46,817 nt of DNA from Candidatus Bipolaricaulota bacterium (lineage in GTDB: Bacteria > Bipolaricaulota > Bipolaricaulia > Bipolaricaulales > Bipolaricaulaceae). Location of the stretch: contig JAUQPF010000045.1 in assembly GCA_030550535.1 (NCBI GenBank), positions 1 through 46,817 of the forward strand, in the 5' to 3' direction. The position numbers and the translations under genes are program-made. Each line of letters begins with the position of its first letter. The stretch's first letter is position 1. The notes below the pieces were generated by a model. That model saw only the letters and a program-made list of their open reading frames with translations. It was not told the origin of the DNA and made no database searches. Below are positions 4-43,157 of the stretch, piece by piece.

Positions 4-77
4 TGGGAGATCGGCTAATGGTAGGCCGGCGGGCTCTGGACCCGCTAGTGGGGGTTCGAATCCCTCTCTCCCAGCCA
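4..77 (+). tRNA. tRNA-Gln (anticodon CTG)
   Basis: A complete cloverleaf can be folded. The acceptor stem TGGGAGA (4-10) pairs with TCTCCCA (67-73), the anticodon stem is GCGGG/CCCGC, and the loop CTCTGGA gives anticodon CTG, which reads CAG. The T-arm is GGGGG-TTCGAAT-CCCTC, the discriminator is G74, and CCA is encoded at 75-77. The U1-A72 start is typical of bacterial tRNA-Gln. The 3' half (45-77) is antisense to the end of fchA. No terminator is visible downstream, because that DNA is fchA coding sequence. Confidence 0.96.
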
Positions 78-662
78 AAGGGAAAGCTCCTCCTCAAGCG
101 GCGCCAGCACGAACGCGGCCTTCTCCTCCGCCAAGTCCGCGAGTTCCGCCCGCGCTTGCCCTAATTCCGCCCGGAATTTCTCGTCCTGGATGCCCTGAGC
201 GTTGGCGTCCACGGTGTACAGGGCCGCGAGGCACGCGGCCCAGGCCAGACGGGCCGCGCAGGCCAGATCGCTGCGCGCGCTCTTGGGACAAAGGGGGATG
301 AGGCGCTCCGCGAGGTCCATGAGGGCCAGGGATTTCTGGGCCACCTCCAAGGGGACGCCGGCGGCCCGGGTGAGGGCCTTCGCGAGGGCCTCGCCCCCGG
401 ATTTCTGGGCCGCTACCACAGCGGCATAGGCCTCAGCATCCGCTTGGCCTAGCTCCAAAAACTTCTTCACGAAGGCCTCGGCGCGTTCCACGGCCTCGCC
501 CACGGGCCGGCCGCGTTTTTGGGCCAGGGCTGCCACCTTGCGCACCAACGCGGCGGCCAAGGCCCCGCCCAGCGCGGCCGTGGTTCCCCCGCCCGGGACG
601 GGCTCCGTGGACCCCAGCGCGGCAAGGAAGGATTCGATCGTGGTGTCCGTAAACTTCTCCAT
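45..662 (-). CDS. fchA: Methenyl-THF cyclohydrolase / cyclodeaminase family (FchA-like), 205 aa
   Basis: Member of the formiminotransferase-cyclodeaminase C-terminal family. As a stand-alone protein the family supplies 5,10-methenyl-THF cyclohydrolase or formimino-THF cyclodeaminase activity in the cytosol. The N-terminal glycine-rich motif PVPGGGTTAALGGALAAALV (about residues 21-40) and the all-helical remainder fit the family, as does the length. The ATG at 662 has AAGGAGG at 671-677. It is the last gene of a minus-strand run behind an ABC exporter, 58 bases away. The C-terminal tail ending ERDSNPH is read from the antisense of the tRNA-Gln gene, and its TAG stop (45-47) lies in the tRNA variable loop. 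The cyclohydrolase role is favoured because FolD in this window lacks cyclohydrolase residues. Cyclodeaminase activity cannot be excluded. Confidence 0.88.
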   Translation of the reverse strand: MEKFTDTTIESFLAALGSTEPVPGGGTTAALGGALAAALVRKVAALAQKRGRPVGEAVERAEAFVKKFLELGQADAEAYAAVVAAQKSGGEALAKALTRAAGVPLEVAQKSLALMDLAERLIPLCPKSARSDLACAARLAWAACLAALYTVDANAQGIQDEKFRAELGQARAELADLAEEKAAFVLAPLEEELSLWLGERDSNPH

Positions 663-11818: not shown

Positions 11819-11852
11819 GGGGGCGGGGAAAACCCGCCCCCTTTTTCTTTTT
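11819..11852 (+). terminator. Strong rho-independent terminator after acsA
   Basis: A perfect 9-base stem GGGGGCGGG (11819-11827) pairs with CCCGCCCCC (11833-11841) around a GAAAA loop, followed by TTTTTCTTTTT. It lies 8 bases after the acsA stop and directly before the ribosome site of the next gene. Confidence 0.93.
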
Positions 11853-11865
11853 GAGGGAGGAGGGC

Positions 11866-13110
11866 ATGGGGAAAGCGCGGGTGTTCGGACTGCCGCTGAC
11901 CCAAGGGCGCTGGATCTTCGTGGCCCTGGGCTTTCTGGCCAACGTGTGCATGGGCTCGGTCTACGCGTTCAGCGTCTTCCGCAAACCCCTGGAGAACCTG
12001 TGGGGGATTTCGGCCACCCAGAGCGGGCTTCCCTTCATGATCTTCCTCGCGGTGTTCGCCCTGGGGATGGCCTTCGCCGGAAGCCTCGTGGAGAACTGGG
12101 GGCCGCGCAAAACGGGGATCCTTGGGGGCGTCCTTGTGGGAACGGGTTGGATCGCCGCCGGTTTTTCCCCAAACATTTGGATCCTGACCCTCTTTTACGG
12201 GGTGGTGGCGGGGGCCGGGGTGGGCGTGGCCTACGGTTGCCCCATCGCCGTGGCGGGCCGGTGGTTCCCCGACCGCCGGGGCCTGGCCGTGGGGCTCACC
12301 CTCGCGGGATTCGGCGCCTCCGCCCTCTTCGTAGCGCCCATCATGAGCCGCCTCATCGCCCAATTCGGCCCTTTGCGCACGTTCACCCTTCTTGGCGCCG
12401 TGTTCCTTGTGGTCATGGTGCTGGTGGCCCTGCCCCTGCGCTATCCCGAAGCTCCGCCCGTCAAGCCCAAGGAGACGAAGGGGCGCAAGACGCCGGAGGA
12501 GGCCCGCTCCTTGGACCGGAGGGCGATGGTGCGCACGCCCACGTTTTGGGCCCTGTGGCTGGCCTACACCCTCGGCTGTTTGGCGGGGCTCATGGCCATC
12601 GGCATAGCCGCGCCCTTCGGACAGGAGGTGGCCCAGCTTTCCGCGGGGCTTGCCGCCGCGGCCGTCTCGGTGTTCGCCCTGTTCAACGGGGTGGGACGCC
12701 CGCTCTTCGGCTGGCTCACCGACCGGCTCTCCCCCCGCAACACCGGCCTCCTCTCCTTCTCCCTGATCTTGATCGCGGCCTTCCTCCTTTACGCGTTGGG
12801 CCACCACGTGGCCGTCTATTTCCTGGGCTTTGGCCTTCTTTGGCTGAACCTGGGGGGGTGGCTGGCCCTCGCGCCCACGGCCACCGCCACGTTCTTCGGC
12901 ATGAAGCACTACGGCAAGAACTACGGGATCGTGTTCACCGCGTACGGGGCGGGCGCCATCCTGGGAAACGTCCTCTCCGGCCTCATCCGCGACCTCACCG
13001 GATCGTACCGCTCCGTTTTCCCCTGGGTGATGGTCCTGGCGCTCGTTGGGGCTGGGGTCGCGCTCTGGGGGCTCAAGCCCCCCAAAGCCGAGGCCTTGGC
13101 CAAAAGGTGA
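11866..13110 (+). CDS. OFA-family MFS transporter (oxalate/formate antiporter-like), 414 aa
   Basis: Twelve-helix MFS protein resembling the oxalate:formate antiporter family. The N-terminal GRWIFVALGFLANVCMGSVYAFSVFRKPL is typical: a first helix with Tyr-Ala-Phe-Ser-Val-Phe. The amphipathic segment AGRWFPDRRGLAVGLT and the second-half loop FGWLTDRLSPRN also fit. The ATG at 11866 follows GGGAGGAGGG (11855-11864). An in-frame TTG at 11851 lies in the terminator T-run and is rejected. The substrate could be a monocarboxylate such as acetate, formate or oxalate. Neighbours acsA and the formate-THF ligase genes make acetate or formate attractive, but this is inference. Confidence 0.85.
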   Translation: MGKARVFGLPLTQGRWIFVALGFLANVCMGSVYAFSVFRKPLENLWGISATQSGLPFMIFLAVFALGMAFAGSLVENWGPRKTGILGGVLVGTGWIAAGFSPNIWILTLFYGVVAGAGVGVAYGCPIAVAGRWFPDRRGLAVGLTLAGFGASALFVAPIMSRLIAQFGPLRTFTLLGAVFLVVMVLVALPLRYPEAPPVKPKETKGRKTPEEARSLDRRAMVRTPTFWALWLAYTLGCLAGLMAIGIAAPFGQEVAQLSAGLAAAAVSVFALFNGVGRPLFGWLTDRLSPRNTGLLSFSLILIAAFLLYALGHHVAVYFLGFGLLWLNLGGWLALAPTATATFFGMKHYGKNYGIVFTAYGAGAILGNVLSGLIRDLTGSYRSVFPWVMVLALVGAGVALWGLKPPKAEALAKR

Positions 13111-13116
13111 GCGCGC

Positions 13117-14013
13117 TCAGGGCTCGCGCGGGAGGCTCAGCTGGGCCTCACAGGCCGCCACAACGTTCCAAAGAAGCATGGCCACGGTGACCGGTCCCAC
13201 CCCGCCGGGTACAGGGGTTATGGCCTCCACCTTCTCCCTTAGGGCCTCAAAATCGGTGTCGCCCATAAGGCGGAACCCCGTCCGCATCGTAGGATCCGCA
13301 ACGTAGTTCACCCCCACATCCACCACCACGGCGCCTTCGCGCACCATGTCCGCGGTCACCGCGCGGGGCGCCCCCACAGCCACCACGAGGATGTCCGCCT
13401 GCCGGGTGAAGCGTGCAAGATCCAGGGTTCCCGTATGGCAAACGGTGACGGTAGCGTTGGCTCCGGGCTTTTTCTGGAGGAGGAGCGCGGCCAAGGGCTT
13501 CCCCACGGTGTTGCTGCGGCCGCAGACGACCACGTGTTTCCCCTCCGGCGGGTAGCCGCTGCGCACAAGGAGTTGCCAAACAGCGTGCGCCGTGCAGGGG
13601 ACGAGGTAGGGCTCGCCCAAAAGCAACCGCCCCATGTGCCAAGGGTGGAGGCCCTCCACATCCTTTCGGGGATCGAGGGCCTCCGAAACCCGAACCGCCG
13701 AGATGTGCGGCGGGAGGGGCTGGTGCACAAGGATTCCGTGGACCTCGGGGGCCTCGTTCAGCCGCGCGATGAGATCCAGAACTTCTTGCTCCGAGGCGTC
13801 CGAGGGCAACGCGTGGGTGTGCACCCGCACGCCCAACCTCTGGGCCGCGCCCTCCTCCTGCCGCGTGTAGGCGGAGGAGGCCGGGGCCTCGCCCACGCGG
13901 ACCACGGCAAGACCAGGGATCACCCCCCGTAAGGCCAGCCTCTGCAGGCGCGCCCGCAGCTCCGCGTAGATCTCCTCGGCCACGGGCTTCCCCCAAAGCA
14001 GGGTGGCCGCCAT
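13117..14013 (-). CDS. folD: FolD-type methylene-THF dehydrogenase, cyclohydrolase residues missing, 298 aa
   Basis: FolD normally carries out both NAD(P)-dependent 5,10-methylene-THF dehydrogenase and methenyl-THF cyclohydrolase. The fold is intact: PGLAVVRVGEAPAS, VVVCGRSNTVGKPLAALLL for dinucleotide binding, VVDVGVNYV, and TPVPGGVGPVTVAMLLWN. Aligned without gaps to E. coli FolD, however, the catalytic lysine after SSAY is Glu (E53), the partner Gln is His (H97 in GILVHQPLP), and the Asp of DVDG is Glu (E120 in KDVEGLHP). In the human enzyme the equivalents K56, Q100 and D125 are needed for cyclohydrolase. Probably a dehydrogenase-only enzyme. It lies 3 bases after fhs in the same operon. 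Confidence 0.93.
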   Translation of the reverse strand: MAATLLWGKPVAEEIYAELRARLQRLALRGVIPGLAVVRVGEAPASSAYTRQEEGAAQRLGVRVHTHALPSDASEQEVLDLIARLNEAPEVHGILVHQPLPPHISAVRVSEALDPRKDVEGLHPWHMGRLLLGEPYLVPCTAHAVWQLLVRSGYPPEGKHVVVCGRSNTVGKPLAALLLQKKPGANATVTVCHTGTLDLARFTRQADILVVAVGAPRAVTADMVREGAVVVDVGVNYVADPTMRTGFRLMGDTDFEALREKVEAITPVPGGVGPVTVAMLLWNVVAACEAQLSLPREP

Positions 14014-14016: not shown

Positions 14017-15780
14017 TCAGATCAACCCCCGGACTTGCCCGGTCTCCACGTCCACGTCGATCCGGCGGAAGGCCGGGTCGGAGGAGGTCCCGGGCATGAG
14101 GGCGATGTCCCCCGCCACAGGGCAGAGGAACCTGGCCCCGGTGAAGACGAGCACGTCCCGCACGGGAAGCACCCATCCTTTGGGGACACCCTTCCAGTTG
14201 GGATCGTGGGAGAGCGAGAGGTGGGTCTTCACCATGACCGTGGCGAACTCCTCAAGCCGTACGATATCCGCGAGCCCTTCGAGCTTCTCCTTGGCCTCCG
14301 GACTCCATTCCACGCCGTCGGCCCCATAGACCTCGCGGGCGATGCGCTCCACCCTCTCCTGAACGGGCGCGTCCGCCTCGTAGAGGAACCGAAAATCGCT
14401 GGGGTCTTGGCAGGCCTCCAAAACGGCGTCCGCAAGCTCCAAGGCGCCCTCGCCCCCTTTGAGCCAGTGCTCGCCCACGGCGAAGCGCACCCCTGCCTCC
14501 CCCTCCACCGCCCGGCGGACGAGGCGGATCTCCGCCTCACTATCCGTGGGAAAACGGTTCAGGCAGACCACCGGGCTCACCCCCGACCTCTTCACGATCC
14601 CGATGTGGTGGAGGAGGTTGGCCAAGCCCTTCTCCACGAGCTCCAGGTTCTCCCGCTCGTAGACCTCAGGCAGGGGCCGACCGGGCGCGACCCGCGGGCC
14701 GCCGCCATGCATCTTCAGGGCCCGCACGGTGCACACGATCACCGCGACCTGGGGCCGCAGCCCGCTCAACCGGCACTTCACGTTCCAGAACTTCTCAAAG
14801 CCGATATCCGCGCCGAAGCCGCTTTCCGTCACGTGGTACTCGAAGAGTTTCAGCCCCAAAAGATCACCGAGGATGGAGGACTGCCCGAGGGCGATGTTGG
14901 CGAAGGGACCGGTGTGCACGAGCACGGGCTGGTACTCCACGGTGCAGCACAGGGTGGGATGGAGGGCGTGGCGCAGGAGCGCAGCCATGGCCCCTGCCAC
15001 CTCCAGGTCCTCGCACGTGACGGGGCGGCCGCGCCGGTCGTAGGCCACCGTGATGCGCCCCAAACGCTCGCGCAGATCCCTGAGGTCCTTGGCGATGGCC
15101 AGGATGGCCATGATCTCGCTGGAGGGCGTGATTTGAAACCCGGACTCCATGGGGATTCCGTTGCCTTTTCCCCCCAGCCCGATGACGATGTGGCGCAGGG
15201 CCTGGGCGCAGAGGTCCAGGGCCCAGCGCATCTCCACGCGCCGCGGGTCGATGTCCAACCGCCGCAACCCCCGTCTTTCCAGGTCCGCGTCGGAGTAGGT
15301 GGCCTCGTGGTGGAGCCGGGCGGTGAGGGCCACCATGGCCAGGTTATGGGCGTTGGTCACGGCGTCCATGTCGCCCGTGAGCCCCAGGGAGAACTCCGCG
15401 CGGGGGATGAGGAGGGCTTTCCCCCCGCCCGCGGCCGTCCCCTTCACGTTGAACGTGGGACCTGCCGAGGGCTGGCGGATGCAGCCGCCCGCGTTCTTCC
15501 CGCGCTTGGCGAGCCCCTGGATGAGGCCCAGGGTGGTGGTGGTCTTCCCCTCCCCAAGGGGGGTGGGGGTGATGGCCGTGACCACGATGTACTTCCCATT
15601 GGGACGCGCACCAAGACGCGCAAGGATCTTGCGGTGGTCGAGTTTGGCCACGCGGCCGTAGGGGATGATCTCGTCCTTTCGCAAACCCAGCCGCGCGGCC
15701 CACTCCTCCGGGGTGGGCATGTGCTTCTCCGCTTCCTCCGCGATCTCCCAGTCCCGCAGCTTCAGGGGATCAGCGGGCAT
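14017..15780 (-). CDS. fhs: Formate-tetrahydrofolate ligase, 587 aa
   Basis: Activates formate with ATP and THF to 10-formyl-THF, the entry step of the methyl branch of the Wood-Ljungdahl pathway and also used in C1 assimilation. The P-loop is [16 protein letters not shown]. Other family blocks are [60 protein letters not shown], and the C-terminal [18 protein letters not shown]. It is about 30 residues longer than the common 555-560 aa form, and QPSAGP replaces the usual QPSLGP. The ATG at 15780 has AAGGAGG at 15786-15792. It is followed immediately by folD and preceded by the ACD-GNAT gene. Confidence 0.96.
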
Positions 15781-15876: not shown

Positions 15877-18561
15877 CTACCCCAAGGGCTTGGCCGCCAG
15901 GATCACGCTCTCCTCCGTCTTGTACTCCAGCTTGAACCCGCGCTTCTCGAAGATGCGGATCATGCGGATGTTGTCCGGCGTGGTCTCCGCCGTGACCTTG
16001 CGGATGCCCCAGCTGCGCGCGATCTCCAGACAATAATCCGTGAGGATCCCCCCAAGCCCCTTGTTCTGCCAGGGGTCGGCCACGAACACGGCGTACTCCG
16101 CCCGGGTGCGGTCCGGATCGGAGATGAGCCGGCCCACCCCGATCATCCGCTTCCTTCCGCCCTCCTCCACGATGCCCACGATGGCCATCTCCCGGTCGTA
16201 GTCGATGAAGCAATATGGAATGGCCATCTGGTGGGTGGTCTCCTTGAAGATGTAGCGGAAGCGGAAGCGAATAGACTCGCGGGAGGAGATGGCGAGCATC
16301 TCATGCCAGAGGGGCTCGTCCTCCGGACGGATGGGCCTGAGGAGCACCTTCGTTCCGTCCTTGAGGGTCACCCCGCGCTCGTACCCCTCGGGGTAGGGGC
16401 GGATCACGAGGTGGCTGTAGGGCCGGGGCGGCTGGCGCAGGGCCTCCGCGTCCACGATCACCCGGGCGTCGATGGCCACCACCTCCTCAGGCGTGACCAA
16501 AAGCGGGTTCACGTCGATCTCCTGGATTTCCGGAAAGTCCGCGACCAGGTAGGAAAAGCGCCTGATGACCTCCACGAGCTTCTCCACGTTCATGCGGGGC
16601 CGGCCGCGGAACCCTTGGAGGAGAGGCCAAATGCGCAGGGACTCCACAAGGTGCGTGGCCAGGCGCTCGTTGAGGGGAGGAAGGCCCAACGCCCGATCCT
16701 GCAGGACTTCGGCGGTCACCCCGCCTGCGCCCACCATGATCACCGCCCCAAAGGTGGGGTCCTTCTTGGCCCCCAGGATCAGCTCCACCCCCTGCGGAAC
16801 CGGGGCCATGCGCTGCACCGTGACCCCCTCGATACGGGCCTCCGGCCGCCTGGCCCGCACGTTCTCCAGGATCTGGCGAAAGCCCTGACGCACCCCCTCC
16901 GCCGTGCGGATCCCCAGGAGAACCCCGCCCACGTCCGTCTTGTGCAGGATGTCCGGGGACTGGATCTTGAGCACCACGGGGAACCCCAGTTTTTGGGCCA
17001 CCGCCACGGCCTCCTCCTCGGTGCGGGCAAGCTCCGGCATGGTCACGGGGATCCCGTAGGCGGCCAGAAGCTCCTTGGCCTCGCGCTCCCCCAGGGCTTT
17101 GGTCTTGGCGAACCGGGGGAGGAAGGTCTCGCGAATCTGTTTCCGGTCCAAAGCGAACTCCACGGGGATTTCCCTGGGGGTTTGATAAAGGAGATCGAGG
17201 TTGCGGCCGTAGTCCACAAGGTGCATGAACGCCTGCACGGCCTGGTCGGGGGTGAGGTAGGTGGGGATGCCCGCTTGGTTCAGGATTCGGATGCCCTCCT
17301 GCACGGAAGCCCCGCCCATCCAGGCGGCGAGGATGGGCTTGCGCACCCGCCGGGCCACCTCGGCCACGGCCTGGGCCGTCCCGGTGGGATCGGTCATGGC
17401 CTGCGGGGTGAGGATGACGAGCACGGCATCCACGCCGGGATCCTGGAGCACGATCTCCACGGCCTTGGCGTAACGCTCGGGCGAGGCATCGCCCAGGACG
17501 TCCACGGGGTTCCCGTGCGACCAAAACGGGGGGAGGACCTGGTTGAGCCTCTCCAAGGTTTCCTGGGACAGTTCGGCCAGCTGGCCGCGGCGGGCGATGA
17601 GGGCATCGGTGGCCATGACCCCGGGGCCGCCGGCGTTGGTCACGATGGCCAGCTTCGCCCCTAAAGGCGGCCGCACCCGCGCCACAAGCTCCGCGGTATC
17701 GAAGATGTCGCTGATCTCGTAGACGCGCACGGCGCCGGCGCGACGGAAGGCCGCGTCGTACACGGCATCCTCCCCGGCCATGGCCCCCGTATGGGAGCTC
17801 GCGGCCCGCGCGGACTCCGCAAACCTCCCGGCCTTGTACACCACGATGGGCTTGGTGCGGGCGAACGCCCGCGCCGCGGACATGAACCCCCGCGCCTCCG
17901 TGATGGACTCCACATAGAGGATGATGGAACGCGTGCGCTCGTCCTGGCCAAAGGAGTCGATGAGGTCGCCGAAGTTCACGTCCACCATGTTCCCGATGGA
18001 GACGAAGTGGGAAAAGCCAATCCCCTCCTCGATGGCCCAGTCCAGGACCGAGGTGCAGAGGGCTCCGGACTGGGAGATGAAGGCCACGTGGCCATCGGGC
18101 GGCATGGCCGCGGCGAAGCTCGCGTTGAGACGCAGGGAGGGCACGATGATCCCAAGGCAGTTGGGGCCGATGATGCGCAAGCCCGGGAACTCGCGGGCCT
18201 CCGCCTTCACCCGCTCCTCGAGCTTGCGGCCCTCTTCCCCGGTCTCCTTGAACCCCGCGGAGATGATGATGAGCCCCAGAATCCCGGCCTCGCCGCACTG
18301 GCGCACAAGATCGGGCACGGTGGGCGCCGGCGTGCAGATGATGGCCAAATCCGGGGTGCGCGGGAGGCTTTTCACATCGGGGTAAGCGTGGATGCCCTGG
18401 ACAGCCTCGTGGCGGGGGTTCACGGGGTACACCACGCCCGGGAACCCCGAGCCCACCAGGTTCTTGAGCACGGTGTAGCCCACGCTCCCCGGGTTGTTGC
18501 TGGCCCCAATGACCGCGATGCGCTGGGGTTTGAAGATCTTGTCCAAGTTAAGGATGCTCAA
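15877..18561 (-). CDS. ADP-forming acetate-CoA ligase (alpha-beta fusion) with C-terminal GNAT acetyltransferase, 894 aa
   Basis: The order is a CoA-binding Rossmann domain (about 8-140, IAVIGASNNPGSVGYTVLKN), succinyl-CoA ligase-like domains with the SSHTGAMAG motif (phospho-His H257), an ATP-grasp beta part from about residue 500 with LHKTDVGGV (H540), and a GNAT domain from about 740 with the acetyl-CoA motif QNKGLG (832-837). E. coli PatZ has the same order but Asn-Thr where His is found here. This protein may therefore be a working ADP-forming ligase (acetyl-CoA to acetate plus ATP) joined to a lysine acetyltransferase. The start is TTG at 18561, supported by GGAGGG about 9 bases upstream. 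It precedes fhs-folD by 96 bases. The acetyltransferase target could be AcsA. Confidence 0.9.
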   Translation of the reverse strand: MSILNLDKIFKPQRIAVIGASNNPGSVGYTVLKNLVGSGFPGVVYPVNPRHEAVQGIHAYPDVKSLPRTPDLAIICTPAPTVPDLVRQCGEAGILGLIIISAGFKETGEEGRKLEERVKAEAREFPGLRIIGPNCLGIIVPSLRLNASFAAAMPPDGHVAFISQSGALCTSVLDWAIEEGIGFSHFVSIGNMVDVNFGDLIDSFGQDERTRSIILYVESITEARGFMSAARAFARTKPIVVYKAGRFAESARAASSHTGAMAGEDAVYDAAFRRAGAVRVYEISDIFDTAELVARVRPPLGAKLAIVTNAGGPGVMATDALIARRGQLAELSQETLERLNQVLPPFWSHGNPVDVLGDASPERYAKAVEIVLQDPGVDAVLVILTPQAMTDPTGTAQAVAEVARRVRKPILAAWMGGASVQEGIRILNQAGIPTYLTPDQAVQAFMHLVDYGRNLDLLYQTPREIPVEFALDRKQIRETFLPRFAKTKALGEREAKELLAAYGIPVTMPELARTEEEAVAVAQKLGFPVVLKIQSPDILHKTDVGGVLLGIRTAEGVRQGFRQILENVRARRPEARIEGVTVQRMAPVPQGVELILGAKKDPTFGAVIMVGAGGVTAEVLQDRALGLPPLNERLATHLVESLRIWPLLQGFRGRPRMNVEKLVEVIRRFSYLVADFPEIQEIDVNPLLVTPEEVVAIDARVIVDAEALRQPPRPYSHLVIRPYPEGYERGVTLKDGTKVLLRPIRPEDEPLWHEMLAISSRESIRFRFRYIFKETTHQMAIPYCFIDYDREMAIVGIVEEGGRKRMIGVGRLISDPDRTRAEYAVFVADPWQNKGLGGILTDYCLEIARSWGIRKVTAETTPDNIRMIRIFEKRGFKLEYKTEESVILAAKPLG

Positions 18562-30488: not shown

Positions 30489-31340
30489 CTAGGGGCCGGC
30501 TTGCAGGGCCTCGGCCAGGGCGAGAAGGAGGCGGCCGGCCACCTTCCGGCGGTACTCCGCGGTGGCCCGAAGATCGGAGATGGGTTGGGTGGCCGCAGAG
30601 AGGACGGGCACGAGATCCTCCCAGGCCTCCGGCGCGAGGGGCCGCCCCACCAGGGCCTCCTCCACGTCCCGCGGCCGGAGGACCGTGGGCGCCACGGAGC
30701 CCAAGGCCAGCCGGGCCCGCTCCACCCGCCCGTCGCGCACCCACACCAACGCGCCCAAGGAAGCCACAGCGATGATGAGGGCCCGCCGCCGCCCCACCTT
30801 GCGGAAGAAGCTCCGAGGGTGCCCCTCCGGATAGGGGAGGAAGACGGACCGTACGAGCTCCCCTCTCTCCAAGGCCGTCTTCCTTGGGCCTACGAGGAAC
30901 TCGGGGATGGGAAGCTCCCGTTCGCCCCGCGGCCCCACGAGGCGCACCCGGGCCTCAAGAAGGGAGAGGGCCACGAGGCTATCGCCCGCGGGCGAAGCGG
31001 TGACGAGGTTTCCCCCCAGGGTCCCCATGGCCCGGATGGCCGGGGACCCAATGGTGCGCAGCACCGCCCGCAGGATGGGGAAGCGCTCCGTGGCCGGATG
31101 GACCAGGAGCTCGGCATGGGTGAGGGCCGCGCCGATCTCCAGGCCCTCAGGGCCCTCCCGCAGGATCCGCAGCTCCGGAAGCTCGCCCACGTACACCAAA
31201 AGCTCGGGCTTCTCTTGGCCCTTGCGGATGGCCACGAGGAGATCCGTGCCGCCCGCCAGGGGCCTCCCGCCCTCCTCGAGGTACCGCAGGGCCTCCTCTA
31301 GGCTCCTGGGCTTCACCGCGGGGATCGGGCGCAGCCGCAC
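30489..31340 (-). CDS. Xanthine dehydrogenase-type FAD-binding subunit (CoxM/XdhB family), 283 aa
   Basis: Medium subunit of a molybdenum hydroxylase. It binds FAD and passes electrons from the 2Fe-2S subunit. FAD-binding motifs are PLAGGTDLLVAIRKG (29-43) and the TIGSPAIRAMGTLGGNLVTA pattern near residue 100, with the C-terminal domain IIAVASLGALVWV. The start is GTG at 31340, with a very strong AAGGAGGTGA just upstream. The first 28 bases overlap the MocA-like gene. A second copy of this family lies at 43206. This copy has no large subunit beside it in the window. Confidence 0.92.
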   Translation of the reverse strand: MRLRPIPAVKPRSLEEALRYLEEGGRPLAGGTDLLVAIRKGQEKPELLVYVGELPELRILREGPEGLEIGAALTHAELLVHPATERFPILRAVLRTIGSPAIRAMGTLGGNLVTASPAGDSLVALSLLEARVRLVGPRGERELPIPEFLVGPRKTALERGELVRSVFLPYPEGHPRSFFRKVGRRRALIIAVASLGALVWVRDGRVERARLALGSVAPTVLRPRDVEEALVGRPLAPEAWEDLVPVLSAATQPISDLRATAEYRRKVAGRLLLALAEALQAGP

Positions 31341-31960
31341 AGGGCTTCACCTCCTTGGAGGTCCTCCCGACGGTCCACGTCCAGGATCACGCCGGGGTCG
31401 TCCCAGGGAATGAGCTCGCAATCCGAAAGAAGGGCCCGGGCGCCCACGTCGCCCCGGAGGGCGAGGAGCTTGGGGCGCAGGGAAGCCGGCAGGTACACGG
31501 GGAAGCCCCGCCGGCCCGCGAAACAGGGGGCCACGGGGTGCGGGCCGGCGCGGGAAAGCACCGCCCGGGCGGCCTCCTCCGGCACCCAAGGCATGTCCCC
31601 CAGGAACACGAGCACCCCGGCGTCCACCTCTTCCGCGGCACGGCGCAAAGAAGAGCCCAAGCCCTCAGGCCAGTCCGGGTTGTAGAGGATGCGCCAGGCG
31701 TACTTCCCCCTCATCTCCACCCGCTCCCCCCAGAGGGACAGGAAAGAGGCATGCGCGCTTTCCCCAAAGGCTCCAGGGAAGAGGGCGGCGAGGATTTCCT
31801 GGGCGTGGGCACCCAGAACGAGCACACGCTCCGCCAGAGGAAGGCGCTCCACGAGCTCCAGGACCCGGGCCAGCAGAGGCTTTCCCTCCAGGGGGGCGAG
31901 GAGCTTGGGGGCGGGGCCGAAGCGGCGGCCGGGGCCCGCGGCCAAAACCACACCCGTCAC
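31313..31960 (-). CDS. Molybdenum cofactor nucleotidyltransferase (MocA/YgfJ-like), 215 aa
   Basis: NTP-transferase-fold protein. The start TGVVLAAGPGRRFGPAPKLL is the nucleotide-binding motif of MocA/MobA enzymes, and FLGDMPWVPEEAARAVL carries the metal-binding Asp. MocA adds CMP to molybdopterin for xanthine-dehydrogenase-type enzymes; YgfJ relatives occur in selenium-dependent hydroxylase clusters. The GTG at 31960 is chosen because it lies 1 base after the 2Fe-2S subunit stop and directly before the motif. It sits between the CoxS and CoxM genes, which supports a maturation role for the hydroxylase. The nucleotide cannot be assigned by eye. Confidence 0.88.
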   Translation of the reverse strand: MTGVVLAAGPGRRFGPAPKLLAPLEGKPLLARVLELVERLPLAERVLVLGAHAQEILAALFPGAFGESAHASFLSLWGERVEMRGKYAWRILYNPDWPEGLGSSLRRAAEEVDAGVLVFLGDMPWVPEEAARAVLSRAGPHPVAPCFAGRRGFPVYLPASLRPKLLALRGDVGARALLSDCELIPWDDPGVILDVDRREDLQGGEALCGCARSPR

Positions 31961-31961
31961 C

Positions 31962-32444
31962 CTAGGATTCCGCACCTTTTTCCTCCCGCAGCCTCCGTGC
32001 CGCCAAAAGCACCGCGTCCACGATCTGCTCATAGCCCGTGCAGCGGCAGAGGTTCCCGGAGAGCCACGCCCGCACCTCCTCCCGCGTGGGGTTCGGATTT
32101 TCCAAAAGGAGGGCGTAGGCGGCCATGAGGAAGCCCGGCGTGCAAAAACCGCACTGCACCCCGGCCGTCTCCACCAACGCCTCCTGAAGGGGATGGAGCT
32201 TCCCGCCCTGGGCAAGCCCCTCCACGGTGAGGACGTCCTTCCCCTCCACTTGGAGGGCGAGGGTGAGGCAGGAAAGGCGGGGCTTTCCGTCCACAAGGAC
32301 GGTGCAGGCGCCGCACTCGCCCTCGCCGCAGCCCTCCTTGGTCCCGATGAGGCCGAGGTCCTCGCGCAGAAGATCAAGGAGGCGCCGGCCCGGAGGGACC
32401 TCCACCTCCACGGGGCGACCGTTCAACCGGAACTTCAGGCGCAT
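31962..32444 (-). CDS. Xanthine dehydrogenase-type 2Fe-2S subunit (CoxS/XdhC-like), 160 aa
   Basis: Small iron-sulfur subunit of a molybdenum hydroxylase. The plant-type ferredoxin cluster uses C39, C44, C47 and C59 (EGCGEGECGACTVL ... LSC). The C-terminal helical 2Fe-2S cluster uses C98, C101, C133 and C135 (VQCGFCTPG ... NLCRCTGY). All eight ligands are present. The ATG at 32444 overlaps the threonine-synthase-like gene by 10 bases. The next gene is the MocA-like enzyme, then the FAD subunit. A second copy of this family is at 44054. Confidence 0.95.
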   Translation of the reverse strand: MRLKFRLNGRPVEVEVPPGRRLLDLLREDLGLIGTKEGCGEGECGACTVLVDGKPRLSCLTLALQVEGKDVLTVEGLAQGGKLHPLQEALVETAGVQCGFCTPGFLMAAYALLLENPNPTREEVRAWLSGNLCRCTGYEQIVDAVLLAARRLREEKGAES

Positions 32445-33670
32445 CGCTCCACCGCCTCCCGCACGGCCCGAAGATCGGGGCGGATGAGCGGGGGCTCGGG
32501 AAGATCCCGCGTCACGCCCTGGGGATCCTTGAGCCCGGAGCCGGTGATGATGAGCACCACCCGATCCTTTTGGCCCAAAGCGCCCTCCCGAACGAGGCGC
32601 AGGAGGGCAGCATAAGGCGCAGCTCCCGAGGGCTCAGCGAACACCCCCGCCCGGCGGGCCAGCTCCCGCGCCGCCGAAAGAAGCTCGGGGTCGCTCACGG
32701 TCACATAGCCCCCGCCCGTCTCCGCCACGTACTTCACGGCCTTGACCACGTCCGCAGGCTTCCCCACCCGGATGGAGTCCGCCAAGGTCTCCGCGGGCTC
32801 CTCCGCAGGAAGAATGGGCGCGCCGCGTTGGAAGCGGGCGAAGGCGTGGGCCACGGCGGCCGCGCCCGCGGCCTGGACCCCGAACACCTTGGGCACGCGC
32901 GGCGCAAGCCCCGCCTCCCTCAGCTCCAAAAAACCCTTGCACACCCCCGCGATCACCGCGCCGTCGCCCACGGCCACCACCACCGCCTCCGGCACGTCCC
33001 CCAGCTCCTCCCAGATCTCGAAGGCCACGGTTTTATTGCCCTCCACCACCATGGGGTTGAGGCCGTCGGAGCGGTTGTACCAGCCGAACTCCTGGGAGGC
33101 CGCGAGGGCCAGAGCGAAGGCCTGGTCATAGTTTCCGTCCACGCGAAACACGAAGGCGCCGAAGGCCACAAGCTGGGCGATCTTCGGGGCCGGAGCGTTC
33201 TTGGGGACGAAGATGTAGCAGGGGACCCCGCCGGCGGCACAGAAGCCCGCAAGGGAGCTCGCGGCGTTCCCCGTGGAGGCGCAGGCCAAGGCCTTGCGTC
33301 CCAGCCTTTTCGCCACGGCCACGGTGACGGCCGTGCCCCGGTCCTTGCAGGAAGCCGTGGGCTGCAGGGTGTCGTCCTTGATCCAAAGGGCCCCAAGCCC
33401 CAGCTCCTCGGCCGCCTGGGCCCAGGGGTACAAGGGGGTGCCGCCCGCGCGCAGCCGCACCGCGTGCTCCTCCCCCACCGGGAGGAGCTCGCCGTAGCGC
33501 CAAAGGGAAAAGCGCGCGGGGTCCGGGAAGCGCCGCAGGGGTTTATCCCGGTCATAGAGGACTTCGAGGTTCCCGGCGGGGAAGCCGCACCGAGGGCAGA
33601 AGTAGTCCACGGACCAAGGCGGGAACTCCCGGCCGCAGGTCACGCATCGCAAGGCCTTAGGCTCCGCCAC
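32435..33670 (-). CDS. Threonine synthase-like PLP enzyme, 411 aa
   Basis: Fold-type II PLP enzyme similar to ThrC, with an N-terminal zinc ribbon C9-X2-C12 and C25-X2-C28. The PLP lysine is K109 in TASCKDRGTA, where most threonine synthases have SFKDRG or SYKDRG. The CASTGNAASSLAGF phosphate-binding region and the IITGSGLKDP C-terminal signature are present. The start is GTG at 33670 with GAGGTGA upstream. It overlaps ygfK by 14 bases and the 2Fe-2S gene by 10 bases, inside a purine-catabolism run where diaminopropionate ammonia-lyase (YgeX, also PLP type II) often stands. Either a true ThrC or a paralogue with a new substrate. Confidence 0.85.
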   Translation of the reverse strand: MAEPKALRCVTCGREFPPWSVDYFCPRCGFPAGNLEVLYDRDKPLRRFPDPARFSLWRYGELLPVGEEHAVRLRAGGTPLYPWAQAAEELGLGALWIKDDTLQPTASCKDRGTAVTVAVAKRLGRKALACASTGNAASSLAGFCAAGGVPCYIFVPKNAPAPKIAQLVAFGAFVFRVDGNYDQAFALALAASQEFGWYNRSDGLNPMVVEGNKTVAFEIWEELGDVPEAVVVAVGDGAVIAGVCKGFLELREAGLAPRVPKVFGVQAAGAAAVAHAFARFQRGAPILPAEEPAETLADSIRVGKPADVVKAVKYVAETGGGYVTVSDPELLSAARELARRAGVFAEPSGAAPYAALLRLVREGALGQKDRVVLIITGSGLKDPQGVTRDLPEPPLIRPDLRAVREAVERCA

Positions 33671-36600
33671 CGCTCACCTCCCAGAGGTGGGGAAGGCTCT
33701 CCCGCAGGCCCCGAAGGAGGAGGGCCATCTCCCAGGCGGCCCGAAGCGACCGCGTCCCCAAGAAAGGCTTCTTGAGCGCAAGCTCGCGCACACGCAGCTC
33801 TCGGTCGAGTTTAACGCGGAGGTAGGGGTCTTCGAACACGAGGATCTCCCCCTCCTGCCCGATCCGCGCTTCCTCCCCGTCTTCCCGGCGATGGAGGACG
33901 CCCCGGGCGAGGAGGAAGGCGTTGCGCTCCTCCGCCCGCCAGGTTTCCTCGTGGAAGTACAAGCGAGGCTTGTCCTGGTAGGGTTTCCCCTCGTGAACAC
34001 AGAACGTGGCGCAGTTGCCGCAATCGTTGCAGAGATCGTCCAGGTGGAGGATCTGGCGGGCCTGGGTGATGCGGAGCTCCTCCTCGCCCACCACGCGGAG
34101 CGCCCCGTCCTTTACGGCCACTTGGGGGACGCGCCAGGTTCCCGTGGGGGCGAGGTAGGCCACGTTGGCCCTGTTCGGGCAGACCTCCACGCATTTGTCG
34201 CAGAGGGTGCGGCATTGGAGGCACCGCTCGGCCTCCGTTTGAGCGGCCTTGGGGGAGAGGACGCGCTCCACCGGGCGAAAGCCCCGCCGCAGCCGCACCG
34301 GCAGGGCATCAGGACCGAAGGGCATGACCTTCCGGGCCTTTCGAACCCTGAGAACCCGGGGCTCTTGGGGAGCGGCGGGCACGGGGAGCTCAGGAAGAGC
34401 TAAACCGAGCTTCTTGAGGATGGCGAGGGCCGCGCAGCGGCCGTCGGCCACGGCCTCGATCACCGTGGCTGGGCCGCGCACGGCGTCTCCGCCGGCCCAC
34501 ACCCGGTAGAGGTTGGTCTCGCCCGTCTCCGGGTCCACGGCGAGGCGCCCATCGGGATGGAGGACCAACCCGGTCCCGTCGAAGAAGCGCACCTCGGGGC
34601 GTTGGCCCACGGCCACGATCACGGAATCGCAAGGGATACGGAACTCCGTGCCCGGGATGGGCTCCGGCTTGGGGCGGCCGTCGGGCCCGGGCTCGCCCAG
34701 GCGGTTGCGGAGGCACCACAGGGCCGCGACCTTCCCGCCCCGCCGGGCGATGCGCAGGGGGGTCGCAAGCTCCACAAGCTCGTTCCCCTCGCGCAAAAGC
34801 TCCTCCACCTCCTCGGGATGGGCGGGCATCTCCGCCCGGCTGCGGCGGTACACCACGGTCACCGGCCTTCCCGTGAGGCGCCAGGCCGCCCGGGCCGCGT
34901 CCATGGCGGTGTTTCCCCCGCCCACCACCACGACCTTCTCCCCAAGGTCCGGCCGTTCCCCCTGGGCCAGGGCCCGGAAGAGCGCGAGGGCCCCGAGCAC
35001 GCCCGGCCCCTCCTCCCCGGGGATCCCCAGCTTCGCCTCCCCCGGGAAGCCCGGGGCCAGGAAAACCGCGTCAAACCCGCGATCCAAAAGCTCGGCGGCC
35101 GAGGCCAGCGGGCGGTTGTAGAAGAACTTCACGCCCAGGCGCTCCAAGCGGGCCACGTCCTGCCGCAGAGCCGCCCTGGGCAGGCGGAACTCCGGGGCCA
35201 AGGCGATCATGCCCCCGGGCCCCGGCCCGGCCTCGAACACCTCCACCTCCACCCCCGCCAAGGCCAGGTAGAAGGCGCAGGAGAGTCCCGCGGGACCCGC
35301 GCCCACCACGGCCACCCGGCGTCCGGTGGGCGGAAGCGGCATAAGCTCCACCCGCCCGCGCTCGGCGGCAAACCGCTTGAGGGCCCGGATGGCCACGGGC
35401 TTCTCGTAGTTCCAGCGGGTGCAACGCCTCTCGCAGAACGCGGGGCAAACGTAGCCCGTCACGGTGGGAAGCGGGTTGCGGGCGAGGATGGCCTGGAGGC
35501 TCGTCTTGGGATCGCCCGCGGCGAGCCAACCCACGTACTCGGGCACGTCCTGGCAGGTGGGGCAGGCGGCCACACAGGGCGCGGCAATGCAGTCAAAGAA
35601 GGCAAGCCCGTCCGGGATCTTCGGGAGCTCCCCGAGGAAGAAGCCCCTTTGGTAACGCGGGTTACGCAGGCTCTCCTCCGCGGCCCGGCGGAGGTTCTCC
35701 GCCCGGTTCCGCGTGAACTCCGCGAGGTTCTTGGCCCGGGCTTTGGCCATGGCCTCCCGCAGCTCCGCCAGCCACTGGGAGAAGCGGGCGTACCCGCCGG
35801 GCTTGAGGAGGTCCGTGCAGGCCGTAACCGGAAGCGCCCCGCAGGCGATGAGGACAGGGAGGTTCAGGGCGTCCGCCCCGCCCGAATAGGAGACGTGGAT
35901 GTCGCCGTCCAAGTCCTGAAAGAGCCGCCAAAAGAGGTTCAGGGTCACGGGATAGAGGGCCCTTCCGGACATGTAGATCTCCTCCCCGGGGAGCACCCCG
36001 CGGTGGTTGGCCATGGCCAGCGTGTTGGTGAGCTTCACCCCAAACACAAGCCCCAGGGCCTTGGCCTTGGCCTGAAGCCTACGGATCAGGGGCAGGGCTT
36101 GCTCGTACTGGAGATCGTGCTCGAACACCCGCACCGGGATGTGGATCTCCCGAAAGCCCAAACGGTCGTGGAGGATGCGCATCACCCGATCGTGGCCAAG
36201 GAGGGTGGGGTTCAACTTCACGAAGGTGTGAAAGCCCCGCTCCAGGAGGAACTCGGCGATGGCCTCGATCTCCTGAGGGGGGCAGCCGTGCATGGTGGAG
36301 AGGGTCACGCTCCGGGAGACCTGGGAGGGGATGTCCAGGTCCGCGTATTCCGGGAACTCCCGGCGCAGGGTTTCCCGCACCTCCTCAAGAACGTTCCGCG
36401 CGTCCACAAGCGCGGCGAGGAAGCCCTGAATCTTTGGGCTTTTGATCCCCTCGAGGTTGTAGCCCACGCTCATGTTGAACACGGTGCCCAAGGGGCGGCC
36501 CTCCCAGCCCAGGGCCTTGCGGAGCACATGGATGAGGGCCCAGGCGTGGATGTACTCACGCGCGGCCTCCTCCACCCGCAGCTCTTGCGACCACTCCACG

Positions 36601-36920
36601 TTGTAGCCCTCGTCCGCCGCGTCGATGCAGGGCCGAGGGATGGTGAGGTCATCGAGGACCTGAACGGTCTTGAGCTCGATGAACCTCCCTCCGCAGAGCC
36701 AGGCGGCCACGATGTTCTGGCTCATCTGGGTGTGGGGGCCGGCGGAAGGGCCGATGGGCGTGGCCAAAAACTCCCCGAAAATCTCGGTGTTAAAGGGCTC
36801 GGGACGGGGCTCGTAGAAGAGCTCCCTGGGGATGCCGAAGACAGAGCCCTGGTGCCGCAGCTCCAAAAGGGCCCAACGCAGAAGCGCCCGGAACGAAAGG
36901 GGACGAAGCTCCGTGGGCAT
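33657..36920 (-). CDS. ygfK: YgfK-type putative selenate reductase / glutamate synthase-like oxidoreductase, 1087 aa
   Basis: Large multidomain flavo-iron-sulfur protein. The N-terminal 400 residues form a dihydroorotate-dehydrogenase-like barrel (VSRSVTLSTMHGCPPQEIEA, GVKLTNTL, VSYSGGADALNLP). A GltD-like part follows with cysteine sets C444/C449/C453/C456 and C492/C496/C500. Two Rossmann motifs are VAVVGAGPAGLSCAFYLA (537-554) and VVVVGGGNTAMDAARAA. The C-terminus has two ferredoxin-like 4Fe-4S sets: C900/C903/C907/C910/C914 and C964/C967/C970/C974. This matches YgfK, found with ssnA and selenium-dependent xanthine dehydrogenase. The named selenate activity is unproven for most members. The ATG at 36920 is 12 bases after ssnA. 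Confidence 0.93.
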   Translation of the reverse strand: MPTELRPLSFRALLRWALLELRHQGSVFGIPRELFYEPRPEPFNTEIFGEFLATPIGPSAGPHTQMSQNIVAAWLCGGRFIELKTVQVLDDLTIPRPCIDAADEGYNVEWSQELRVEEAAREYIHAWALIHVLRKALGWEGRPLGTVFNMSVGYNLEGIKSPKIQGFLAALVDARNVLEEVRETLRREFPEYADLDIPSQVSRSVTLSTMHGCPPQEIEAIAEFLLERGFHTFVKLNPTLLGHDRVMRILHDRLGFREIHIPVRVFEHDLQYEQALPLIRRLQAKAKALGLVFGVKLTNTLAMANHRGVLPGEEIYMSGRALYPVTLNLFWRLFQDLDGDIHVSYSGGADALNLPVLIACGALPVTACTDLLKPGGYARFSQWLAELREAMAKARAKNLAEFTRNRAENLRRAAEESLRNPRYQRGFFLGELPKIPDGLAFFDCIAAPCVAACPTCQDVPEYVGWLAAGDPKTSLQAILARNPLPTVTGYVCPAFCERRCTRWNYEKPVAIRALKRFAAERGRVELMPLPPTGRRVAVVGAGPAGLSCAFYLALAGVEVEVFEAGPGPGGMIALAPEFRLPRAALRQDVARLERLGVKFFYNRPLASAAELLDRGFDAVFLAPGFPGEAKLGIPGEEGPGVLGALALFRALAQGERPDLGEKVVVVGGGNTAMDAARAAWRLTGRPVTVVYRRSRAEMPAHPEEVEELLREGNELVELATPLRIARRGGKVAALWCLRNRLGEPGPDGRPKPEPIPGTEFRIPCDSVIVAVGQRPEVRFFDGTGLVLHPDGRLAVDPETGETNLYRVWAGGDAVRGPATVIEAVADGRCAALAILKKLGLALPELPVPAAPQEPRVLRVRKARKVMPFGPDALPVRLRRGFRPVERVLSPKAAQTEAERCLQCRTLCDKCVEVCPNRANVAYLAPTGTWRVPQVAVKDGALRVVGEEELRITQARQILHLDDLCNDCGNCATFCVHEGKPYQDKPRLYFHEETWRAEERNAFLLARGVLHRREDGEEARIGQEGEILVFEDPYLRVKLDRELRVRELALKKPFLGTRSLRAAWEMALLLRGLRESLPHLWEVSGGGA

Positions 36921-36932
36921 GCCCCACCCCCT

Positions 36933-38255
36933 TCAGAGCTTGGCCCAGATCTCCTGGGCCTTCCTGCGGGCGCGGGCAAGCACGGCCCTCTCCTCGATCC
37001 CCTCGATCCGGCCATCCCGCAGGCGGATTTGGCCGGCCACGATCACCACGCTTGGGCGCAGGCCCTCGCTGATGTTGGCAAAAAGGAGGTGGGAAAGGAG
37101 GTTTCCTCCGGAAAGCGGGGTGGGCGGCGCGTAGTCCCAAAGGACGAGATCCGCAGCATACCCCTCCTGCAGCCTTCCGAAGGGAAGACCGAAGGCCTTT
37201 TCCGCCAGGGCGTAGTTCTGGGCGAGGATTTGCTTGGCGGCTTCATCGCCGAGGGCCAAGGGATCGCCGTTGGCGTGGTGGGCCAAAAGCCGCGCCGCAA
37301 GGAGCTCACCCAGCATGTCGCACCCAAACCCGTCCGTCCCCAAGGCCACCGGAATCCCTCGTGCCAGCATCTTCTCCACCTGTGCCGCGCCCACCGCGTT
37401 GTTCATGTTGGAGCGGGGGTTATGCGCCACCGTGGGCTTCTTCTCCGCCAAGAGCTCGAGCTCCGCCTGGGAAAGCTGGATCCCATGGGCAAAGATGGTC
37501 TTATCCTGGACGATGCCGAAGCGGTCCAGGCGCTCGGCCGTGCGCTCCCCGTACTTCTGGAGGGCATCGAGGGGGTCCTCCTTCCCCTCGGCGAGGTGGC
37601 CGTGGTAGCCAAGCCCCAAGGGTTCCGCGGCCTCCCGGCACTTGGCCAAGGTCTCCTCGGAGAGGGTGAAGGAGGCGTGAAGGCCAAAATGCGCGGCGAA
37701 TTGCCCGGGGACCCGCTCCTCCTTGGCGAAGCGCACGTTCTCCTCGATCCCTTGATCCCGCTCCATGGGGCCGCCACGATCGGTGACCTCGTAGCAGAGA
37801 TCCCCCCGTAGCCCAAGCTCCGAAAGGGCCTTCTTGATCTGGGAGAGGGAGCCCAGGATGGCCGAAGGAGAGGCATGGTGGTCGAAGATCACGGAAACAC
37901 CGCGGCGGAGGTGGGCCATCCCGCCCACCAAGGCCGAAAGGTACACGGCCTCCAGGTCCAGCGCCCGATCGAGCTTCCACCAAAGCTGCTCCAGGATCTG
38001 GCCGAAGCTCTTAGGGGAGAAGGCCTTGAGAAAGATCCCGCGGGCCAGGGAGGAGTAGAGGTGGGCATGGGCGTTGACGAGGGCGGGGGTGAGGAGCTTC
38101 CCCTCCCCGGGGATGTGGGTGGCGCCGGGGACCGCAGGGGCAGGGCCCTCGCCGACCTTGCTGATCCGGCCGCCCTCCACCACCACATACCCGCTCTCCT
38201 TGAACGTTCCGAAAAAGTCCGCTAGGCAAGCGCGGTCGATGACAAGTGTGCCCAA
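36933..38255 (-). CDS. ssnA: SsnA-type aminohydrolase, 440 aa
   Basis: Amidohydrolase-superfamily enzyme of the SsnA group, related to guanine and chlorohydrolase-type deaminases. Metal ligands are visible: H63-X-H65 in NAHAHLYSSL, later histidines in YHGHLAEG and FAHGIQLS, and the Asp in LGTDGFGCD. SsnA genes accompany ygfK and xanthine dehydrogenase in purine-using anaerobes; the substrate is not established. The start is TTG at 38255, supported by AGGAGGTGA about 5 bases upstream. That ribosome site lies directly after a terminator hairpin, so expression depends on readthrough from the importer genes. Confidence 0.92.
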   Translation of the reverse strand: MGTLVIDRACLADFFGTFKESGYVVVEGGRISKVGEGPAPAVPGATHIPGEGKLLTPALVNAHAHLYSSLARGIFLKAFSPKSFGQILEQLWWKLDRALDLEAVYLSALVGGMAHLRRGVSVIFDHHASPSAILGSLSQIKKALSELGLRGDLCYEVTDRGGPMERDQGIEENVRFAKEERVPGQFAAHFGLHASFTLSEETLAKCREAAEPLGLGYHGHLAEGKEDPLDALQKYGERTAERLDRFGIVQDKTIFAHGIQLSQAELELLAEKKPTVAHNPRSNMNNAVGAAQVEKMLARGIPVALGTDGFGCDMLGELLAARLLAHHANGDPLALGDEAAKQILAQNYALAEKAFGLPFGRLQEGYAADLVLWDYAPPTPLSGGNLLSHLLFANISEGLRPSVVIVAGQIRLRDGRIEGIEERAVLARARRKAQEIWAKL

Positions 38256-38267
38256 CGTTCACCTCCT

Positions 38268-38299
38268 AAAGAAAAGGGGGCCTGCGGGAGCAGGCCCCC
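38268..38299 (-). terminator. Rho-independent terminator between the importer and catabolic genes
   Basis: A perfect 10-base stem GGGGGCCTGC / GCAGGCCCCC (38276-38285 and 38290-38299) around a 4-base loop, followed on the minus strand by TTTTCTTT. It lies 16 bases after the binding-protein stop and immediately before the ssnA ribosome site. Confidence 0.9.
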
Positions 38300-38315
38300 T
38301 TCCCGCCCGTTCCGT

Positions 38316-39461
<1,146 letters not shown>

Positions 39462-39542
39462 CCTTCACCTCCTCCTTCTGCTGGAAGTTCCCCTTGCCCT
39501 TCCCTGCTGCACTCCTTTTTTTCTCCCGGCTCCCACCCCCTT

Positions 39543-40472
39543 TCAGCGCTCGCCGCGCACGTAGGGTACTCCAAGGGCCCCGGGCGCGCGCCGACGCCAA
39601 CGCGCGCCCCCAAAGCCGCTCAGGGCCAGAACCACCACGGCAAAGAGATAGGGCATGAGCTTGAGGAGTTCGGGTGCAAGGAAAGCCTGAAGGCGGTAGG
39701 AAAGGTGGTAGAGGGCGCCGAAGAAGAGGGCGCCCCAGATGGCCTGCAAGGGATCCCAAGCGGCGAAGATGGTGAGGGCGATGACGATCCAGCCCATCCC
39801 CGCGGTCATCCCCTCCGTCCAGGCCGGGCGATAGGCCACGGAGAGGTAGCCCCCGCCCACCCCGGCCAGGAGCCCCCCGAACACCACGCACAAATAGCGC
39901 ACGAGGGTCACGTTGATCCCCAAAGCATCGGCCGTGGCCGGGCTTTCGCCCACCGAGCGGATGGCCACCCCCCAGCGGGTGCGGAAAAGCAGGAGCCAAA
40001 GGAGGAACGCCAGGACGATCCCGATGTAGGTGAGGACGGTCTGATTCTGAAAGAGCATGGGGCCCACCACGGGGATGCGGGAAAGGCCGGGTAGGGCGAG
40101 GCTGGGCAGGGTGGCCGCGAGGGGTTTGCCCTCCCAGCCCCGGCCCAAAAGACCGGCCAGCCCCAGCCCGAAGATGGAGAGGGCCAACCCGGACACGTAC
40201 TGGTTGGCCCGCAGGGTCACGGAGAGGAAGGCGTGGAACAGGGCGGCCACCCCGCCCACTCCGGCGGCGGCGAGCAGCCCCAGCCCCGGCGAACCCGTCT
40301 GGAAGGCTACGGCGAAGGCCGTGAAGGCCCCGAGGATCATCATCCCCTCCACACCCAGGTTGATCACGCCCGAGCGTTCCGCAGAGATCTCCCCGAGCGT
40401 CCCCCAAAGGAGAGGAACACCGAAGGCCAACGCGCGGCTCACCGTGCTTACGAGCCAATCTGCCCAGACCAT
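39543..40472 (-). CDS. ABC transporter permease (nucleoside/simple-sugar type, NupQ-like), 309 aa
   Basis: Integral membrane subunit of the BPD_transp_2 family (RbsC/NupQ-like). It has eight to ten hydrophobic segments and the family strings GEISAERSGVINLGVEGMMILGAF and ANQYVSGLALSIFGLGLAG. The coupling region RTRWGVAIRSVGESPATADALGINVTLVRY would contact the ATPase. The ATG at 40472 overlaps the upstream permease by 25 bases. The binding-protein gene follows after 81 bases. With the BMP protein the likely cargo is a purine nucleoside or nucleobase. Confidence 0.93.
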   Translation of the reverse strand: MVWADWLVSTVSRALAFGVPLLWGTLGEISAERSGVINLGVEGMMILGAFTAFAVAFQTGSPGLGLLAAAGVGGVAALFHAFLSVTLRANQYVSGLALSIFGLGLAGLLGRGWEGKPLAATLPSLALPGLSRIPVVGPMLFQNQTVLTYIGIVLAFLLWLLLFRTRWGVAIRSVGESPATADALGINVTLVRYLCVVFGGLLAGVGGGYLSVAYRPAWTEGMTAGMGWIVIALTIFAAWDPLQAIWGALFFGALYHLSYRLQAFLAPELLKLMPYLFAVVVLALSGFGGARWRRRAPGALGVPYVRGER

Positions 40473-43119: not shown

Positions 43120-43127
43120 GGTGCTCC

Positions 43128-43157
43128 AGTATAGCGGGGCGGCGGGTTGATGGTCAA
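43128..43157 (-). promoter_or_regulatory. Promoter of the importer operon
   Basis: On the minus strand TTGACC (43157-43152), an 18-base spacer and TATACT (43133-43128), 8 bases before the ATG. The -35 is part of an 11-base dyad TTGATGGTCAA (43147-43157), a candidate operator. Confidence 0.65.

Follow-up and report, generated by a model that had tools for sequence, protein, structure and literature searches.

Yeast MTD1 is the classic dehydrogenase-only, NAD-dependent methylene-tetrahydrofolate (methylene-THF) dehydrogenase, and in Clostridium perfringens FolD is reportedly a monofunctional dehydrogenase, with the cyclohydrolase activity coming from FchA. The Pfam family PF04961 (FTCD_C) covers both FchA methenyl-THF cyclohydrolase and formimino-THF cyclodeaminase. 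A dehydrogenase-only FolD accompanied by FchA has already been reported from C. perfringens, and the dehydrogenase-only enzyme as such is known from yeast; for C. perfringens, the title of the published study assigns the dehydrogenase to FolD and the cyclohydrolase to FchA (Aluri, Sah, Miryala, and Varshney 2016, Microbiology 162:145-155; cited in PMC7219735). The residues concerned have been probed in bifunctional enzymes. In E. coli FolD, the Q98H mutant keeps about 1% of the cyclohydrolase and 8% of the dehydrogenase activity, and K54N has undetectable cyclohydrolase and 19% dehydrogenase (PMC5688156). In the human enzyme, K56E is reported to raise the KM of the dehydrogenase reaction more than 6 times and to leave the isotope ratio almost unchanged, and the general base of the cyclohydrolase is still under debate (PMC9173628). 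Human Asp125 binds the pterin ring of the substrate and serves both activities (PMC6443876, PMC3368264, PMC3338484); in Pseudomonas aeruginosa FolD, Arg234 forms a salt bridge with Asp121 (PMC3338484).

The window analyzed here is a stretch of 46,817 nucleotides (GenBank assembly GCA_030550535.1, contig JAUQPF010000045.1) from a Bipolaricaulota metagenome-assembled genome (MAG) of 1.41 Mb in 56 contigs, 91.75% complete. Its folD (Table 1) encodes a full-length two-domain FolD (PF00763, 118.5 bits, above the cut-off), for which the AF2 model (pLDDT 93.4) predicts the FolD fold (TM score against FolD/MTHFD structures, about 0.9). Alignment with E. coli FolD (reference sequence from NC_000913) placed E53, H97, and E120 at K54, Q98, and D121, so that the lysine of YxxxK, Gln98, and Asp121 (E. 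coli numbering), the residues of bifunctional FolDs, are all replaced, and the minus-strand codons agree. The initial annotation had made the same three assignments, which hold, from an alignment described as gap-free, which it is not: a one-residue gap before position 33 offsets the two numberings by one. Tyr49 (E. coli Y50), the dinucleotide motif GRSNTVGKP (GRSxxVGKP), and PVPGGVGP are present, confirming that the dinucleotide and folate-fold motifs are intact, and the window FolD has the pattern expected on sequence of a dehydrogenase-only enzyme, namely, cyclohydrolase residues replaced and dinucleotide site intact. A second FolD with intact Lys, Gln, and Asp, raised at the outset as the case that would speak against such an enzyme, was not found; a PF00763 search of the whole 92%-complete assembly returned this single gene.

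Table 1. Features of the window discussed in the text
Feature	Position	Strand	Remarks
PF04961 protein (FchA/formimino-THF cyclodeaminase family), candidate stand-alone methenyl-THF cyclohydrolase	45..662	-	PF04961, 120 bits, over cut-off
MFS monocarboxylate transporter	11851..13110	+	convergent neighbor of folD; of the lactate type (SfMCT), in the oxalate/formate antiporter superfamily
folD, methylene-THF dehydrogenase with cyclohydrolase residues replaced	13117..14013	-	complete 298-aa ORF; E53, H97, E120; also H126, A142, Y237
folD codon 120, GAG (Glu)	13654..13656	-	pterin-binding Asp replaced
folD codon 97, CAC (His)	13723..13725	-	conserved Gln replaced
folD codon 53, GAG (Glu)	13855..13857	-	catalytic Lys replaced
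fhs, formate-tetrahydrofolate ligase	14017..15780	-	immediately upstream of folD and on its strand, with 3 bp between the two genes; 1010 bits against NCBIfam NF010032, above the cut-off
Acyl-CoA synthetase (ADP-forming) with a fused acetyltransferase domain	15877..18561	-	upstream of fhs
Molybdopterin-dehydrogenase FAD subunit	30489-31340	-	
MobA-like	31313-32377		
PLP enzyme	32435-33670		
YgfK	33657-36920		
SsnA	36933-38255		
Nucleoside-type ABC transporter	38316-43119		
Molybdopterin-dehydrogenase FAD subunit	43095-44057	+	

The FolDs of 100 genomes of the phylum were gathered and aligned, and a tree was built. This places the window FolD in a clade with 27 further sequences (56 to 71% identity, SH-aLRT 99-100). 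All 28 nearest FolDs keep the Tyr, Lys, Gln, and Asp, including that of the same-genus sister G001 (71% identical), and the window FolD departs from only 7 of the 81 positions that are invariant in the clade (D43A, K53E, Q97H, D120E, N126H, P142A, and R237Y). The loss of the three residues is thus private to the window lineage and not a drifted trait of the clade. That Lys, Gln, and Asp should all be among the seven changes has a chance probability of about 4e-4. Over residues 141 to 270 the window FolD is as similar to the other FolDs of the clade as G001 is (against G002, for example, 0.79 and 0.81, respectively), but over residues 1 to 140 it is about 5 points less similar to them than its sister. 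Compared with G001, the gene has a dN of 0.21 and a dS of 0.70, giving a dN/dS of about 0.3; the data depict a gene that is being maintained while its folate site has changed, and not one in decay. The exact E/H/E triplet occurs in one MAG only, and a sequencing artefact is unlikely, given seven changes at invariant sites, an open frame, and normal constraint.

These data also bear on the possibility that the window FolD is on its way to complete loss of function or has taken on another role, the dehydrogenase being weak or gone as well. Several of its other changes (D43A, N126H, P142A, and R237Y) also sit around the folate pocket, and Q98H alone cuts the dehydrogenase of the E. coli enzyme to 8% (PMC5688156). 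However, the frame is intact and co-directional with fhs, the level of constraint and the conservation of the dinucleotide domain are those of a functional gene and of the sister protein, the structural model is a confident FolD fold, and this is the sole FolD of a genome with SHMT, GcvT, and Fhs. Moreover, two of the changes are found in working homologues, R237Y in human MTHFD2L (7QEI) and D120E in yeast MTD1. We therefore consider decay or repurposing improbable.

As to what the substitutions would do, the window H97 is the very change made in E. coli Q98H. At the columns of E53, H97, E120, and H126, yeast MTD1 (sequence of 1EDZ, identical over 320 residues) carries T57, Y98, E121, and Y127. 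Owing to the Q98H and K54N precedents, the T/Y/E of MTD1, and the conserved dinucleotide domain, which shows normal constraint, a dehydrogenase-only window FolD is very likely, as first proposed. The two halves of this statement differ in strength: the cyclohydrolase has in all probability been lost, and the dehydrogenase, for which constraint and precedent speak, has probably been retained. The third residue calls for a correction. Human D125 had been listed among the residues needed for cyclohydrolase, which is too strong, since this pterin-binding aspartate plays a part in both activities. In the window FolD the replacement of Asp by Glu at position 120 keeps the carboxylate, and Y237 and E120 are the counterparts of Arg234 and Asp121 of P. 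aeruginosa FolD. One could also imagine that the E/H/E site still hydrolyzes methenyl-THF by another chemistry, with E53 or H97, for instance, as the general base; Glu and His can both act as bases, and the base of the normal reaction is itself debated (PMC9173628). Set against this, the same Gln-to-His change leaves only about 1% of the cyclohydrolase in E. coli (PMC5688156) and MTD1, with E121, is monofunctional, which makes such an activity very improbable.

We then considered the PF04961 protein of the window, initially annotated as a stand-alone FchA-type cyclohydrolase. It is a member of PF04961, the core of the family (PxPGGG, D75, D132, and N154) being kept, but the narrower assignment to FchA is less secure: the protein scores 64.8 bits against the NCBIfam FchA equivalog NF045657, for which the cut-off is 275 bits, it is devoid of the LPK...R loop found between helices in FchA (7VG4) and in FTCD, and a glutamate formiminotransferase (FTCD_N, 253 bits) is encoded in the same genome. 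The NF045657 cut-off was likewise missed by eight further PF04961 proteins from the phylum (at most 238.9 bits). The PF04961 proteins of the window's genus (that of the window, L058, L059, L061, and L128) are 10 residues shorter at the LPK...R loop, which is deleted, and carry T for the conserved N at position 150, so that they may act on a substrate other than that of the rest of the family; the G001 protein has the same deletion and T150, yet the G001 FolD is intact.

Since the formiminotransferase is also present, the window protein may be a formimino-THF cyclodeaminase paired with it. There would then be no enzymatic cyclohydrolase: Fhs would make 10-formyl-THF directly, SHMT and GcvT would supply methylene-THF, FolD would only reduce the methenyl-THF arising from formimino-THF, and spontaneous hydrolysis would take care of the rest. 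This would fit the presence of FTCD_N in 86 of 100 phylum genomes, the apparent anaerobic purine-catabolism cluster of the window (30489-44057), and the resemblance to Thermotoga maritima TM1560, which is annotated as a cyclodeaminase, likewise lacks the LPK...R loop, and is the best PDB sequence match. The name of TM1560 is itself an annotation, however, and the predicted fold of the window protein matches Methylorubrum extorquens FchA (7VG4) and TM1560 (1O5H) equally well, with TM scores of about 0.85 and 0.88. Gene order also argues against a cyclodeaminase: the PF04961 gene lies 51 to 57 bp from folD, with fhs adjoining, in G004, G012, and G022, whose FolDs lack the lysine (K-less), and about 1 to 1.6 kb from folD in five other genomes, while in none of the tabulated phylum genomes is it within 15 kb of FTCD_N. 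On this evidence we regard the cyclodeaminase reading as rather unlikely and give a modest preference to the PF04961 protein being a working cyclohydrolase.

Whether it replaces the FolD activity is a separate matter. The neighboring folD and PF04961 genes of the three K-less genomes make a replacement plausible, as suggested initially, but do not prove it, the family occurring together with an intact FolD in relatives, including G001 and G007 of the window's genus. The proposed correlation between loss of Lys, Gln, and Asp and presence of fchA was examined across the phylum for the lysine: PF04961 was found in 8/8 K-less but also in 57/69 K-bearing genomes (P = 0.34) and, among genomes at least 90% complete, in 6/6 and 24/26, respectively. 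FchA presence was therefore rejected as a predictor of lysine loss; taken over the whole FolD set, PF04961 permits the loss without predicting it.

The surroundings of folD place the enzyme in a pathway. The order of fhs and folD is the same in G001, and besides Fhs the window genome encodes SHMT, GcvT, the formiminotransferase, and one formyltransferase-domain protein. In this genome (G000:C3, L143:2782-6129, plus strand), SHMT (residues about 60 to 480) and the aminomethyltransferase GcvT (about 725 to 1070) lie in one 1116-residue frame, with another weak match to GCV_T in between; the two enzymes, each of which handles methylene-THF, thus appear to be fused. A formate/oxalate antiporter was considered for the MFS gene next to folD and rejected, its best model being a lactate transporter. 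The initial annotation had combined Fhs, FchA, and FolD into a split methyl-branch pathway. The fhs gene is indeed there, but neither acetyl-CoA synthase (PF03598) nor methylene-THF reductase (PF02219) was found in the 92%-complete window genome, and acetyl-CoA synthase was not found in G001 either, so that a Wood-Ljungdahl methyl branch is not supported. With both of these enzymes missing, the most likely role of the route is to link serine and glycine with formate and 10-formyl-THF.

Within the phylum, acetyl-CoA synthase was found in 0/8 K-less and 29/69 K-bearing genomes (P = 0.02, uncorrected), but only four independent pairs are available on the tree, the second trait differing in an average of 1.2 of them, and its absence was not upheld as the driver of lysine loss. 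The enzyme is patchy in Bipolaricaulota, occurring in 36/100 genomes and changing about 13 times along the FolD tree; in several of the genomes that carry it, some 3 kb separate acsB and folD.

Taken together, we favor, with a probability of roughly 0.68, a reading in which the window FolD has become dehydrogenase-only by point substitution. The window lineage would have lost the cyclohydrolase by replacing the catalytic Lys with Glu, the Gln that positions it with His, and the pterin-binding Asp with Glu, and FolD would now interconvert methylene-THF and methenyl-THF with NAD(P). The step from methenyl-THF to 10-formyl-THF would be carried out by the PF04961 protein, by spontaneous hydrolysis, or by both, and Fhs would tie 10-formyl-THF to formate and ATP. 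At one end of the route would be serine and glycine, perhaps together with formimino-THF derived from the degradation of purines or histidine, and at the other formate and 10-formyl-THF; flux could run either toward formate and ATP or from formate.

On a quick FolD tree from which the trait columns had been left out, the FolD lysine changes four times in the phylum, each time in genomes that have PF04961 and lack acetyl-CoA synthase: K to E in the window genome (G000); K to I or L in G004, G012, and G022, where the Gln is also lost; K to Q with D to E in G025, G027, and G082; and K to T with Q to E in G081. G004 belongs to the window's genus, and since its FolD is a different one, only 43% identical to the window FolD, the site disappeared along separate routes in two members of this genus; the placement of the G004 protein is unsure, some branches of the tree being long. 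D to E is seen in 4/8 K-less and 0/75 K-bearing FolDs and P142A in 7/8 and 10/75, counts that ignore relatedness. We would tentatively suggest, with doubt slightly outweighing confidence, that FolD became dehydrogenase-only at least four times independently in Bipolaricaulota, two of these events falling in the genus of the window (G000 by point substitution, G004 by way of an unrelated K-less folD beside a PF04961 gene), always with PF04961 and without acetyl-CoA synthase, and with a recurrent D to E/P142A signature of which D to E is common to yeast MTD1.

Other variants were seen in the same alignment. In 28 phylum FolDs (for example, L021, L023, L028, L080, and L097), K and D are kept and Q is replaced by E, and 25 of 26 such genomes have PF04961; G069 (L096/L097) and G087 (L098/L099) each encode two FolDs, one K/Q/D and one K/E/D. 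In the clade formed by L024, L027, and L031 (G012, G022, and G004) with L025 (G023), GxG(R/A)-VGLP, with a one-residue deletion, replaces GRSxxVGxP, which suggests a changed cofactor use, alongside Lys and Gln loss in three of the four. The folD frames of L111 (G078) and L120 (G036) look broken or shifted in the N-terminal half and may be assembly errors.

Every NCBIfam name among the matches of the window FolD denotes a bifunctional enzyme, and with this default annotation metabolic models of genomes of this kind assign to it an activity that it probably lacks. The phylum offers natural replicates of the same loss together with a large Q to E class, so that natural variants can be used to test what Lys, Gln, and Asp each do. 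In the open-access literature, we found no description of such a recurrence within one phylum, of a private in situ loss inside an otherwise intact clade, or of the D to E association.

The closest known systems each share part of this proposed arrangement. The E. coli mutants match it in that Q98H equals H97 and loss of the Lys removes the cyclohydrolase while the dehydrogenase stays (PMC5688156), but they are single laboratory changes, with Asn and not Glu for the Lys, whereas the window FolD is a natural triple variant. In yeast MTD1, as in the window FolD, Lys, Gln, Asp, and the N are all replaced, D to E being common to both; MTD1 is, however, a distant protein (phmmer E value of 1.2e-05) with an altered nucleotide domain and other residues at two of the three positions. 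M. extorquens, with MtdA and FchA, and acetogens, with Fhs, FchA, and FolD, resemble the arrangement proposed for the window in having a stand-alone PF04961 cyclohydrolase and a separate dehydrogenase, but MtdA is of another family and the acetogen sets serve the Wood-Ljungdahl pathway, which was not found here. C. perfringens belongs to another phylum, and the activity of its FchA has reportedly been measured, yet it is reported to have the set of three that is proposed here, namely, a dehydrogenase-only FolD, a separate FchA, and Fhs for formate activation.
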